Both the position numbers and the translations under genes were made by a program. From contig NZ_KB235914.1 in the NCBI RefSeq assembly GCF_000332175.1, forward strand, positions 3,654,868-3,718,867: DNA of 64,000 nucleotides. The letters are read 5' to 3'. Under the pieces are notes generated by a model. The model saw only the letters and a program-made list of their open reading frames with translations, was not told the origin of the DNA and did not search any database. The stretch comes from Pseudanabaena sp. PCC 6802. Its GTDB lineage: Bacteria; Cyanobacteriota; Cyanobacteriia; Pseudanabaenales; Pseudanabaenaceae. Shown here piece by piece: positions 53,558 to 59,134 of the stretch. Each line of letters begins with the position of its first letter. The stretch's first letter is position 1.

Positions 53558-55675
53558 ATGCGATCGCTCAGACACCTCAGTATCAAATCGCAATTGATTG
53601 TCATGCTTTTATCCGTTAGCGGACTATCCATTCTCGTTACCACCTATTTGGGCTACCGCAGCGGACAGGCGAACCTCACCGATCGCGCTTTCAGTCAGCT
53701 CACCAGCGTGCGAGCATCCAAAGCCTACCAAATCGAAGCTTACTTCAAAAATATTCGCAACCATACCCAAACTCTTAGCGAAGATCCCGCAATGGTGTCG
53801 GCACTTCAGGAATTTGCGCTTGCCTATCAGCAGTTACAAGGCGCGACTGTCCCCGAGGCGTTCGATCGACGAATTCAATCCTACTATCGCGATGAATTCC
53901 TGCCCAAACTTGCCAAGACCGAATCCGGGTCTCCCGTTTTGGCTGCCTACCTCCCTAAAGTCACTGCCTCCCGCTATTTGCAATACCACTACATTGCTGC
54001 TAATCCACACCCCCTGGGCAAAAAACATTTGCTGGATGCCGCCAACGATAGCAGTAACTACAGCCGCCTCCACGCCCGCTACCATCCGATTTTCCGCAAT
54101 ATCATCGAAAAATTTGGCTATTACGATATGTTCCTGATCGACACCCAGGGTAACGTGGTTTATACCGTGTTTAAAGAAACTGATTTCACCACAAATTTTA
54201 ATAATGGTGCTTATCAAGATAGCAACCTGGCCAGTTTGAATGCCACAGTGCGCTCGTCCAAGGAACGAAACTATGCCAAACTGGCAGACTTTGTAGCTTA
54301 TGCCCCTTCCTATGGCGCACCAGCAGCATTTATTGCTGCCCCCATGTTCGATCGCTCCGAATTTGTCGGCGTTCTCGCCTTTCAACTCCCCGTTGATGAA
54401 ATTAATAACGTGATGACGGGCAATCGCCATTGGGAAAGCGATGGTTTGGGCAAAACTGGGGAAACCTACCTGGTTGGGCGAGATCGGTTGATGCGATCGG
54501 TATCTCGCTTTTTAGTGCAGGATCCGCAAACTTACTTGAATACCCTGCGATCGCTGGGAATGCATGCGGCTACCATTAACCGGATCGAGCAATATGGCAC
54601 CTCCATTTTGCAGCAACCCGTACACACTGATGGCGCTACCGCAGCTTTGAACGGACAACAAGGCACCCAAATTATCAACGATTACCGAAATATTCCGGTG
54701 CTCAGCTCCTACGCGCCGATTCGGATTGATGGACTGGACTGGGCAATCTTAGCGGAAATAGATTTGGCGGAAGCTTATGCCCCCATCTATGACTTTGAGC
54801 GCCAGATTTTAATTTCGGCTACGCTTTTAATGCTGCTGGTGACCCTGTTAGCGATGGGATTGGCAAATCTATTTGTGAAGCCAATTCAACAATTGATCGA
54901 TAGTGCCCGTAAAGTTGCGGCTGGGGAATTGGATACCATTGTGGCTCTGGATACACGCAACGAATTTGGTGAATTGGCTCAATCTTTTAACCTCATGGTC
55001 GATAGCCTGCAAACTCAGACCAATTTGGTTGAGGAGAAAAATCGCGAGAACGAACAATTCTTGCTCAGCGTCTTTCCCGCCGCGATCGCAAAGCGTCTGA
55101 AGCGAGGAGAAAAAGATATCGCTGAAGATGTTTCCAATGTCTCCGTCCTGTTTGCCCATCTCACAGGGTTTTCCCAACTTTCTGCCGCTCTGACAGCCTA
55201 CGAAATAGTGACAATTTTGAACGAACTCGTGACAGCCTTTGACGATGCCGCCGAGCGACATGGCATGGAGAAGATTAAAACGATTGGAGATAGTTATCTG
55301 GCAGTTTGCGGCGTTTCTACACCCTATTTAGATCAGGATAAGCGGGCGGTCGATCTGGCAATGGAGATGCGTGCGATTATTCGTCGATTTAACCACGAAC
55401 GCAATTTTCATTTGAATATCTGCATCGGTCTGAATTCAGGAGATGTTGTGGCGGGAATCGTGGGGCGAAATAAATTTATTTATGATGTTTGGGGCGACAC
55501 GATTGACCTGGCGAATACCCTATGCACGACTTGCCCACCCGGTGCAATTCTCGGGTCTACGACAATTTACCAGCGATTGCACGATCTCTATGCTTGGGAA
55601 GCACTGGAAGTGTCGAATAACGGCACTAAGCTGCGTGCCTGGCAACTGAAGCCCTCTGAGTTTGCGGATCGCTGA
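53558..55675 (+). CDS. Receptor-type nucleotide cyclase homologue, probably inactive
   Basis: A 705-residue membrane protein: TM1 (about 13-33), a large periplasmic dCache-type sensor (about 35-405), TM2 (ILISATLLMLLVTLLAMGLA), HAMP (PIQQLIDSARKVAAGELDTI) and a class III cyclase domain (about 505-700). The cyclase fold is clear (KTIGDSYLAVCG, VWGDT), but the first metal Asp is His (VLFAHLTGF near 531), and the Asn and Arg of the VNxASR-type motif read IDLANTL (about 648). Loss of these residues predicts little or no catalysis. The channel gene follows after 60 bases. Confidence 0.9.
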   Translation: MRSLRHLSIKSQLIVMLLSVSGLSILVTTYLGYRSGQANLTDRAFSQLTSVRASKAYQIEAYFKNIRNHTQTLSEDPAMVSALQEFALAYQQLQGATVPEAFDRRIQSYYRDEFLPKLAKTESGSPVLAAYLPKVTASRYLQYHYIAANPHPLGKKHLLDAANDSSNYSRLHARYHPIFRNIIEKFGYYDMFLIDTQGNVVYTVFKETDFTTNFNNGAYQDSNLASLNATVRSSKERNYAKLADFVAYAPSYGAPAAFIAAPMFDRSEFVGVLAFQLPVDEINNVMTGNRHWESDGLGKTGETYLVGRDRLMRSVSRFLVQDPQTYLNTLRSLGMHAATINRIEQYGTSILQQPVHTDGATAALNGQQGTQIINDYRNIPVLSSYAPIRIDGLDWAILAEIDLAEAYAPIYDFERQILISATLLMLLVTLLAMGLANLFVKPIQQLIDSARKVAAGELDTIVALDTRNEFGELAQSFNLMVDSLQTQTNLVEEKNRENEQFLLSVFPAAIAKRLKRGEKDIAEDVSNVSVLFAHLTGFSQLSAALTAYEIVTILNELVTAFDDAAERHGMEKIKTIGDSYLAVCGVSTPYLDQDKRAVDLAMEMRAIIRRFNHERNFHLNICIGLNSGDVVAGIVGRNKFIYDVWGDTIDLANTLCTTCPPGAILGSTTIYQRLHDLYAWEALEVSNNGTKLRAWQLKPSEFADR

Positions 55676-55735
55676 TGGGGCTATCCATCCAATTCCTCCC
55701 GCCCCCCTAAATAACTTCCCCTCTCAACGGTATCT

Positions 55736-57202
55736 ATGAACAGCAGCACCCTTTGGCAAAGTAGCACCTGGATTTGGGCGATCGCGCTCGCAATTGGCTT
55801 TCCCTTCACGACTATTCTGCTGGGCGAAACCATCCACTGGTTAAGCCGACATGGCAAGCCCCTGGCTACCACCCTGCGGTTGGTTCGCAACTTGATCGTG
55901 CCAGTACTGGTATTCCTGCTGTTTATGCAACATGTCTTGCATCTAGAGGCCGATGGGCGCACGATCAAAACTATGCAAACCCTCCTCTGGGTCTGTATTC
56001 TCCATGCTTCTTTATCTCTACTGAATGTAGTGCTGTTTGAAGAAGCCGAGACCGATACGTGGCGCTCGAAGGTGCCAAAACTGCTGATCGATCTGTTGCG
56101 TTTAGTCCTGATCCTGGTGGGAACGGCAATCGTCCTCGCAACGGTGTGGAATGCCGATTTAGCCGGTCTAGCTACCGCTCTTGGGGTTAGTTCGATCGTG
56201 ATCGGTCTAGCTTTACAGGATACCCTGGGCAGCGTGACCTCTGGAATAGCCTTGCTGTTCGAGCGCCCCTTTTCCGTGGGCGATTGGCTGCAAGTGGGGG
56301 ATTTTGTGGGACAGGTGATCGACATTAACTGGCGAGCGGTGCGACTCCAAACCTTGGAGCGAGAAATGCTGGTGATTCCCCACAAAGTAATTAGTGCTGA
56401 AATCATTCGCAATTTTAGTCAACCGCTGCTGCTGCATGCAGAACGAATTAAACTGGGATTTTCTTACAATAATCCACCGAACCTCGCCAAACAAGTGCTG
56501 AAAAGTACGGCTTTGGGAACTCAAGGGATTCTGTCCGAACCCGAGCCTCAAGTTTTTACATTAGCCTACGATGATTCTGCGGTGACTTATGAAGTGAAAT
56601 TCTTTATCCACAACTATGGCGAGCTAGAAGAAATTCGCGATCGCTTCATGACGCGAGTTTGGTATGCTGCCCAGCGCAATGGTTTATCCATTCCCTTTCC
56701 CATTCGCACGCTTTATCATTTCCACGGCCCCACCGCCCAAGCTAAGCAAACCGCCAAACGCTTTGCCAATAGTTTGCAATCGCTGCCCTCGTTTGTGCCT
56801 TTGGAGGAAGAAACCGATCTGCAAAACCCCTCCGAAAATATCGAGCTACAGCACTTTGGAGCAGGTGAAAAAGTCATGCGCCAGGGGGATTTGAGCCACG
56901 CGCTGTACATCATTATCTCTGGCAGAGCGCGATTGACTACCCGCGATCGCCAGGGAGTGGAGCAGGAAGTTCTGGTGCTGCAAGCTGGAGAATTCTTTGG
57001 GATGATTACCTTATTTTCCGGCGAACCTAGCGCGGTATCGATCGCAGCAATTAACGATCTGGAGGTCATGCGCCTTTCCGCTACGGTGGTCGATCGAATG
57101 ATCGAGCGCCAGCCTCAATTTGCCCGCGAAATCGGACAAGTTTTAGAAAACCGCCGTCGGGCGATTCAAGCGGTGCAGCAGCCGGAGGAGAAGCCCGCTT
57201 AG
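55736..57202 (+). CDS. MscS-type mechanosensitive channel with cyclic-nucleotide-binding domain
   Basis: A 488-residue channel. Three to five N-terminal membrane segments lead to the MscS pore helix and beta domain (LATALGVSSIVIGLALQDTL, SGIALLFERPFSVGDWLQVG, LVIPHKVISAEIIRNFSQP). A C-terminal cNMP-binding domain covers about 365-480. Its phosphate cassette reads FGMITLFSGEPSAVSIAA, where the usual FGE(x)LL...PRSA has Glu and Arg; both are replaced here. Nucleotide binding is therefore doubtful. The gene lies 60 bases after the cyclase homologue on the same strand, which suggests a joint sensory unit. Confidence 0.92.
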   Translation: MNSSTLWQSSTWIWAIALAIGFPFTTILLGETIHWLSRHGKPLATTLRLVRNLIVPVLVFLLFMQHVLHLEADGRTIKTMQTLLWVCILHASLSLLNVVLFEEAETDTWRSKVPKLLIDLLRLVLILVGTAIVLATVWNADLAGLATALGVSSIVIGLALQDTLGSVTSGIALLFERPFSVGDWLQVGDFVGQVIDINWRAVRLQTLEREMLVIPHKVISAEIIRNFSQPLLLHAERIKLGFSYNNPPNLAKQVLKSTALGTQGILSEPEPQVFTLAYDDSAVTYEVKFFIHNYGELEEIRDRFMTRVWYAAQRNGLSIPFPIRTLYHFHGPTAQAKQTAKRFANSLQSLPSFVPLEEETDLQNPSENIELQHFGAGEKVMRQGDLSHALYIIISGRARLTTRDRQGVEQEVLVLQAGEFFGMITLFSGEPSAVSIAAINDLEVMRLSATVVDRMIERQPQFAREIGQVLENRRRAIQAVQQPEEKPA

Positions 57203-58234: not shown

Positions 58235-59134
58235 TTAGTTTTCTGTCAACCAGCGATCGAGGTCGGTAATATTATTGAAGTCTAACAACGCCTCGCTGAG
58301 TGCTTCCATTTGCTCGAGATTAAGATTGTTAATTTGGGTTTGGTGGCAGTCTAAATTACCAAACTTTTTGTTTAGGAGACGTAATAAAAGCGATCGCGCC
58401 TCATTTTGTCTACCTTGCTGCATACCCTGCTGCATACCTTCTTGTCTACCTTGCTGCATACCCTGCTGTATACCCTGCTGCATGCCCTCTTGCCTAGCAT
58501 CCTGATAAACCCGAGTCTGCCGCAGATCGTCTAGTGTAAACATAGCTTGAATCTCCTCCCGACTTAGCTTAGGGAATTTATATACCAGGACAGTCTCCAT
58601 AAATTCTACTACAGTCTCTTTTAGCTCTGGCAAGCATCTCTGCTCCACCTCTGTTTTGAGGTTCGCAACCAATTCAGGAATTGTCGCCGATGGTGTGACG
58701 ATTAACTGCACGATCTTAATTGCCCAAGAATCAGTTTCGCGCTCCTGCCAATCGTCCAGGTAAACCCGCCTGATTCGATTACTGGCAAATAGTTCGCGAA
58801 AATGCTCGGCTTCACCAGGGTCGTAGCTGCGGCGGGCAAAGATTGCCACTGCTTGCCAATCTCGTTCCGGTTCGTACTGGCTGAGGTACATGCAAATCTC
58901 TGCCATGAATGCGCTGTAGAAATTATTCTTGGGCTGAGACTGCACCTCGGTAAAGACGATCGGGTTGTCAGAGTTTTTGGGTAAAAAAACGCCATCAAAT
59001 CGAAATGCCTTTTCCTTCACTTCGACAGAGACAAACTCATAATCATCTACGTTGGGAATTGGCTGCTCGGTTAGCTCAAACAGGAGCGAATGAAAGGTTT
59101 TTAGCAACTTATAGAACAGGGTGTCAGTTTTCAC
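58235..59134 (-). CDS. DUF2887/Rpn-like PD-(D/E)XK family protein, second copy
   Basis: A 299-residue paralogue of the gene at 36199: DTLFYKLLKTFHSLLFELTE, VEVKEKAFRFDGVFLPK, IVFTEVQSQPKNNFYSAFMA and METVLVYKFPKLSREEIQAM. The tail holds a longer run of QQGMQQGRQEGM-type repeats before the DUF4351-like end (LLLRLLNKKFGNL ... NNITDLDRWL). The repeats are 12-bp units at about 58407-58495. Such tails probably form a flexible helical linker. The two genes share the start MKTDT/MRTDT. Confidence 0.88.
   Translation of the reverse strand: MKTDTLFYKLLKTFHSLLFELTEQPIPNVDDYEFVSVEVKEKAFRFDGVFLPKNSDNPIVFTEVQSQPKNNFYSAFMAEICMYLSQYEPERDWQAVAIFARRSYDPGEAEHFRELFASNRIRRVYLDDWQERETDSWAIKIVQLIVTPSATIPELVANLKTEVEQRCLPELKETVVEFMETVLVYKFPKLSREEIQAMFTLDDLRQTRVYQDARQEGMQQGIQQGMQQGRQEGMQQGMQQGRQNEARSLLLRLLNKKFGNLDCHQTQINNLNLEQMEALSEALLDFNNITDLDRWLTEN

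Follow-up and report, generated by a model that had tools for sequence, protein, structure and literature searches.

The locus lies in a 64,000-nucleotide stretch of the genome of Pseudanabaena sp. PCC 6802 (hereafter, the window) and comprises two genes, one encoding a membrane receptor with a class III cyclase-homology domain (CHD) and the other a channel of the MscS superfamily that ends in a cyclic-nucleotide-binding (CNB) domain (Table 1). Both ORFs are intact in the window sequence and occupy one strand, with 60 bp between them. The host is a cyanobacterium with a 5.6 Mb genome, in which family searches returned six cyclase-domain matches (the receptor and five others) and 14 CNB matches. 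Elsewhere in the window, a minus-strand gene (58235-59134) encodes a protein of 299 aa that contains a repetitive stretch of Gln, Gly and Met (QGMQQGIQQGMQQGRQ).

Table 1. Features of the receptor-channel locus, with positions in the window
Feature	Position	Strand	Description	Basis
Receptor ORF	53558..55675	+	705 aa; N-terminal TM, dCache-type sensor, TM, HAMP, signaling helix, class III CHD	ORF list, Pfam
dCache_1 match	54116..54574	+	Residues 187-339; E 1.5e-11, 44.7 bits, just below the cut-off of 45	Pfam
HAMP	54860..55012	+	Residues 435-485; E 2.9e-14	Pfam
CHD	55124..55582	+	Residues 523-675; Guanylate_cyc PF00211, E 9.4e-38	Pfam, Foldseek
His534	55157..55159	+	Replaces first metal Asp	Alignment to AC8 C1 and relatives
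Lys574 and Asp578	55277..55291	+	Base-recognition Lys and second metal Asp, kept in KTIGD	Alignment to AC8 and relatives
Asp650 and Thr654	55505..55519	+	Replace catalytic Asn and Arg	Alignment to AC8 and relatives
Intergenic gap	55676..55735	+	60 bp; in the whole family the channel follows downstream on this strand	
Channel ORF	55736..57202	+	488 aa; MscS superfamily with C-terminal CNB domain	ORF, Pfam, Foldseek
MscS beta domain and C-terminal domain	56222..56692	+	Residues 163-319; MscS 2nd and 3rd domains	Pfam
CNB domain	56849..57109	+	Residues 372-458; cNMP_binding, E 1.4e-18	Pfam
Altered phosphate-binding cassette	56996..57049	+	FGMITLFSGEPSAVSIAA; Met423 for Glu, Ser432 for Arg, Val434 for small Ala	

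Catalytic and ligand-binding positions of the two proteins

Six positions of class III cyclases have well-established roles: two metal-binding Asps, a Lys and an Asp that recognize the base, and a catalytic Asn and Arg. The full set is absent from the window receptor. When aligned to adenylyl cyclase 8 (AC8), its His534 (VLFAHLTGF) falls on the metal Asp of LFADVKGF, and in YDVWGDTIDLANTL Asp650 and Thr654 occupy the positions of the Asn and Arg of the C2 motif VNLASRM. Lys574 and Asp578 are retained within KTIGDSY, as is Asp643, giving a six-site string of HKDDDT versus the catalytic DKDDNR (three of six lost). A preliminary description of this DNA had noted the His at the first metal-Asp position, the altered Asn/Arg motif and the preserved KTIGDSY, and the alignments to AC8 and relatives confirm all three. 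The Asn and Arg are likewise missing from the C1 half of mammalian membrane adenylyl cyclases (ACs; VDIANKL in AC8, IDLANTL in the window receptor), but C1 has both metal Asps and a C2 partner, whereas the window receptor has His and no linked C2-like partner. In domain order and cyclase fold, the receptor resembles those class III cyclases that are membrane receptors and carry an extracellular sensor, a HAMP domain and a signaling helix; it differs from these in its lost catalytic residues, a trait of most members of its family. All six residues are intact in L111 and L117, its closest receptor relatives from outside the family. An AlphaFold2 model of the receptor has a mean pLDDT of 86.5, and in this model the cyclase-homology fold is predicted to be intact, with Foldseek matching the CHD to Rv1625c and mammalian AC at TM scores of 0.82-0.90, depending on the target.

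In the channel, alignment of FGMITLFSGEPSAVSIAA with FGELALIYGTPRAATV-type cassettes (PKA and CRP types) identifies the substitutions Met423, Ser432 and Val434. The canonical Glu and Arg of a cyclic-nucleotide-binding cassette are absent, with Met and Ser instead, as had also been described. A second MscS-CNB channel of the same genome (L218) has the canonical Glu and Arg. The MscS fold appears intact in the AlphaFold2 model (mean pLDDT 83.2), which Foldseek matches to MscK, MscS and YnaI. By architecture, an MscS pore and beta domain (from Pfam and the MscS/MscK fold match) followed by a CNB domain, the protein can be likened to bCNG channels, MscS-superfamily members that end in a CNB domain and are described as cyclic-nucleotide-gated where PMC4560390 cites Caldwell et al. 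2010. The subfamily to which it belongs differs in its cassette Ser (Ala in two members), its own side of the channel tree and its linked receptor gene. The double loss to Met and Ser in the channel, together with His in the receptor, is particular to the window member; among relatives, most channels retain the Glu and about half of the receptors retain the first Asp.

Linkage and variants of the pair

Receptor and channel form an old, tightly linked pair. Among 58 near genomes, both genes lie side by side in most of those in which full-length relatives occur. Across the phylum, 28 of 386 genomes encode the receptor, 26 of them in cyclase-bearing form; in the other two (L148, L149) a chemotaxis output replaces the cyclase domain, and no close channel was found in those genomes. 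A channel of the subfamily is present in all 26 genomes with a cyclase-bearing receptor and adjacent to it in 25 (all except G155), where subfamily membership was called at E 1e-65 or better, a cut set after inspection of the data; the channel tree draws the border at the same place. In the fetched loci, a same-strand channel lies beside 120 receptor ORFs (some loci were fetched twice) and upstream of none. The pair also occurs in one Chloroflexi genome fragment (L108), and several genomes keep both genes kilobases or more apart (G002, G021, G024, G028, G032, G040, G155). Among the viral contigs searched for the channel, none encodes it. We found no paper on the receptor-channel pair in the open literature, a search with most subscription journals outside its scope.

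A gene for a PBP_like_2 (PstS-type) periplasmic binding protein directly follows the channel, in the same orientation, at ~20 loci (e.g., L326:190-1476), which represent one deep branch of degenerate pairs and include some loci fetched twice. The Chloroflexi fragment provides an independent case, with an SBP_bac_3 gene in the same position and orientation (L108:6230-7435). These binding-protein neighbors would fit a periplasmic solute as the signal. The same deep branch contains receptors with a C-terminal globin behind a wholly degenerate CHD (L208, L216, L304, L307, L323-L326, L331, L299, L300), mostly followed by an Arg-less MscS-CNB channel. Separate globin-domain genes adjoin the pair at L211:6692-8674 (two globin domains, pentapeptide repeats) and L215:3-1619. 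At the window locus, there is neither a globin domain or gene nor a periplasmic binding protein gene.

Other variants concern the number and integrity of the genes. In L279 and L281, three tandem receptors precede one channel, whose cassette has Ala rather than Ser at the Arg position; only the channel-adjacent receptor lacks the catalytic Arg (DKDDSA versus DKDDTR and DKDDSR). Degenerate receptors are followed by two tandem Arg-less channels in L302 and L305. The receptor of L202 (G301) is split into ORFs of 564 and 218 aa by an insertion-like segment of ~950 bp within the cyclase domain, with an intact channel downstream. L313:2206-4923 (G661) is a single ORF of 906 aa in which a dCache-HAMP sensor is fused to an MscS-CNB channel without a cyclase domain; relative to L276, it corresponds to an 882 nt in-frame deletion, and the first ~64 channel residues are also gone. 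We do not accept this fusion as proof of physical contact between sensor and channel, for which it is suggestive only, since its source is a fragmentary genome, in which it occupies a single contig of 5.6 kb, and either a deletion or faulty assembly may have produced it.

One fixed channel change and repeated receptor losses

None of the 107 distinct subfamily channels (after a 97% cut on the CNB domain) has the cassette Arg; the residue is Ser in 105 and Ala in two. The Glu is retained in 96 of the 107, and the small Ala near the Arg position has given way to Val or Ile. Related MscS-CNB channels outside the subfamily, 21 of 24 of which retain the Arg, are split from it by one branch (SH-aLRT 99), and the channel tree holds two Arg-state changes in total, including the one basal to the paired family. 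The change from Arg to Ser in the channel is single, ancestral and fixed, and preceded the radiation of the family; recent drift as its cause is rejected by the same tree. Also outside the subfamily, the MscS-CNB channels L191, L194 and L197 have Phe or Tyr at this cassette position; there the Arg was lost a second time, independently.

The receptor has a different history. All six catalytic residues are found in seven of 92 receptors (after a 90% cut), the Arg in 15 and the first Asp in 50; universal loss of the Arg, suggested by the motifs of close relatives, was overturned by wider sampling. Ranked by conservation among 185 receptor columns, the catalytic Arg comes 174th and the first Asp 125th, while the fold positions Gly585, Gly628, Tyr642 and Trp645 stay conserved. 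Parsimony requires at least 10 changes on the receptor tree at the first Asp, 10 at the Lys, 9 at the second Asp, 7 at the base Asp, 14 at the Asn and 9 at the Arg, counts that are rough because the tree was built rapidly and several of its branches are long. The cyclase residues have been lost many times independently, as recently as in L215, where Arg became Ser within a clade whose sisters retain it. Wholly degenerate receptors (e.g., HNTSYS) still adjoin the same channel type, and the CHD has a dN/dS of ~0.09-0.21 in two close pairs (pairwise values for the window's own genes are mostly saturated, and the L013/L028 row was left out). Because degenerate receptors persist beside the channel at low dN/dS, the CHD is kept without its active site, and the simplest reading is that it is kept for shape or contact.

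Tree change counts and residue tallies lead us to conclude that the channel changed once and froze and that the cyclase eroded repeatedly. On the sequence comparisons, refitting and fixation of the channel pocket came first, and repeated decay of the cyclase site followed. By the same comparisons, the window substitutions appear to be beyond chance, given the Arg kept in most outside channels and the catalytic set kept in nearly all cyclases fetched from outside the family. The preliminary description had interpreted them as parallel degeneration of two genes that evolved together. The old linkage bears out a shared evolution of the pair, but the losses are neither parallel nor co-dependent: against one ancestral channel change stand 9 to 10 parsimony changes each for the receptor's first Asp, Lys and Arg. 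Degeneration is, moreover, the wrong word for a channel in which the Ser is the fourth most conserved of 115 CNB columns. Both partners are indeed altered: the Arg is missing from every paired channel, and very few paired receptors have their catalytic residues complete. Strict co-variation of the losses is nevertheless rejected as a general rule, since an Arg-less channel is the partner of apparently complete cyclases (DKDDNR in L211-L214, L295 and L297), and loss of the channel Glu and of the receptor Asp, although in the same direction, shows no significant association (median sign test, p 0.25). Despite their complete receptor set, the L295 and L297 pairs have a channel without the Glu as well. 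When orthologous pairs are compared for co-occurrence of the substitutions, canonical residues are found in one partner only, but just in part of the family; the preliminary description had named this outcome as one that would refute its reading.

Signaling through the pair

We propose that the two genes constitute a module independent of canonical cNMP signaling. The dCache-HAMP receptor would sense a periplasmic signal and convey it as a conformational change to the cytoplasmic CHD, which in most members, the window receptor included, would be a non-catalytic transducer. The CNB domain of the partner channel, altered once, would no longer use the customary Arg to hold a cyclic phosphate. The receptor would most likely gate or tune the channel without made cAMP, with contact between the CHD and the cytoplasmic part of the channel as the leading candidate route. 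Co-inheritance, operon order, the fixed channel change and the repeated catalytic losses are directly seen, and the folds are preserved in the models; it is from these that we infer loss of activity, gating and the contact route. We give roughly even chances to a conserved sensor-channel module with a mostly non-catalytic CHD and gating without cAMP, likely by contact. More tentatively, signaling by contact from pseudo-cyclases to MscS-type channels may be widespread, with the CNB domain as a contact surface or a pocket for another ligand and a cNMP circuit having turned cNMP-free. The five other cyclase-domain matches in the genome could supply cNMP and count against a cNMP-free module, as do the several lineages with all catalytic residues in place, some of whose receptors may still be cyclases. 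In mammalian RI-alpha, mutation of the equivalent Arg left cAMP activation in place with a loss of only ~5-fold (PMC6440977), and loss of the Arg alone is therefore no proof of a lost cAMP response.

It is possible, if unlikely, that the CNB pocket is functional and binds a nucleoside or other molecule without a cyclic phosphate, with the CHD sensing or handling a related ligand. The pocket looks refitted rather than eroded, with its fixed Ser, its widely retained Glu and its exchange of the small Ala for Val or Ile, and there is precedent in the PKA regulatory subunits of trypanosomes, in which loss of the phosphate-binding Arg is likewise a fixed family trait and which bind purine nucleosides (PMC6440977, PMC10959531). 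Those proteins, however, are kinase regulators with a Glu at the Ala202 position. In the channel domain, that nucleoside-binding signature is missing, most members having Ala, Thr or Ser at this site, and the window channel also lacks the ribose-binding Glu. The trypanosome-type Val directly follows the Arg position, whereas the Val or Ile of the subfamily channels lies one residue further on.

We consider rather improbable a local, low-affinity cAMP circuit in which the paired receptors were cyclases, the Arg-less CNB domain answers only high local cAMP, and window-type members are decaying or fed by other cyclases. The seven receptors that keep DKDDNR, most of them seen beside Arg-less channels, are consistent with such a circuit; the cAMP-responsive RI-alpha mutant (PMC6440977) and the report of MscS-CNB channels as cyclic-nucleotide-gated bCNG channels, as cited in PMC4560390, point the same way. 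Most paired receptors, however, lack catalytic residues, some of them all, and yet the two genes stay together in the same order. Cyclic-nucleotide binding is further disfavored by the missing small Ala and, in the window channel, the missing Glu. That both proteins are relics without signaling function, the channel being a tension-gated MscS valve with vestigial domains, would fit the free drift of several receptor catalytic residues but is very unlikely in view of the long-term linkage, the one fixed Ser, the intact ORFs and modeled folds, and the purifying selection.

The non-catalytic sensor-channel module that we favor would mean that the annotations "adenylate/guanylate cyclase" and "cyclic nucleotide-binding" are probably wrong about the function of these genes. 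The pair points to a probable receptor of an MscS-family channel; to our knowledge, receptors for such channels are rarely known. It also offers a case, clean in phylogenetic terms, in which a cyclase-channel pair gave up catalysis, and with relatives that have a complete cyclase versus none, this departure from messenger signaling can be compared across species. More broadly, the pair suggests that a device linking sensor to channel by a route other than ordinary cAMP is widespread in cyanobacteria.
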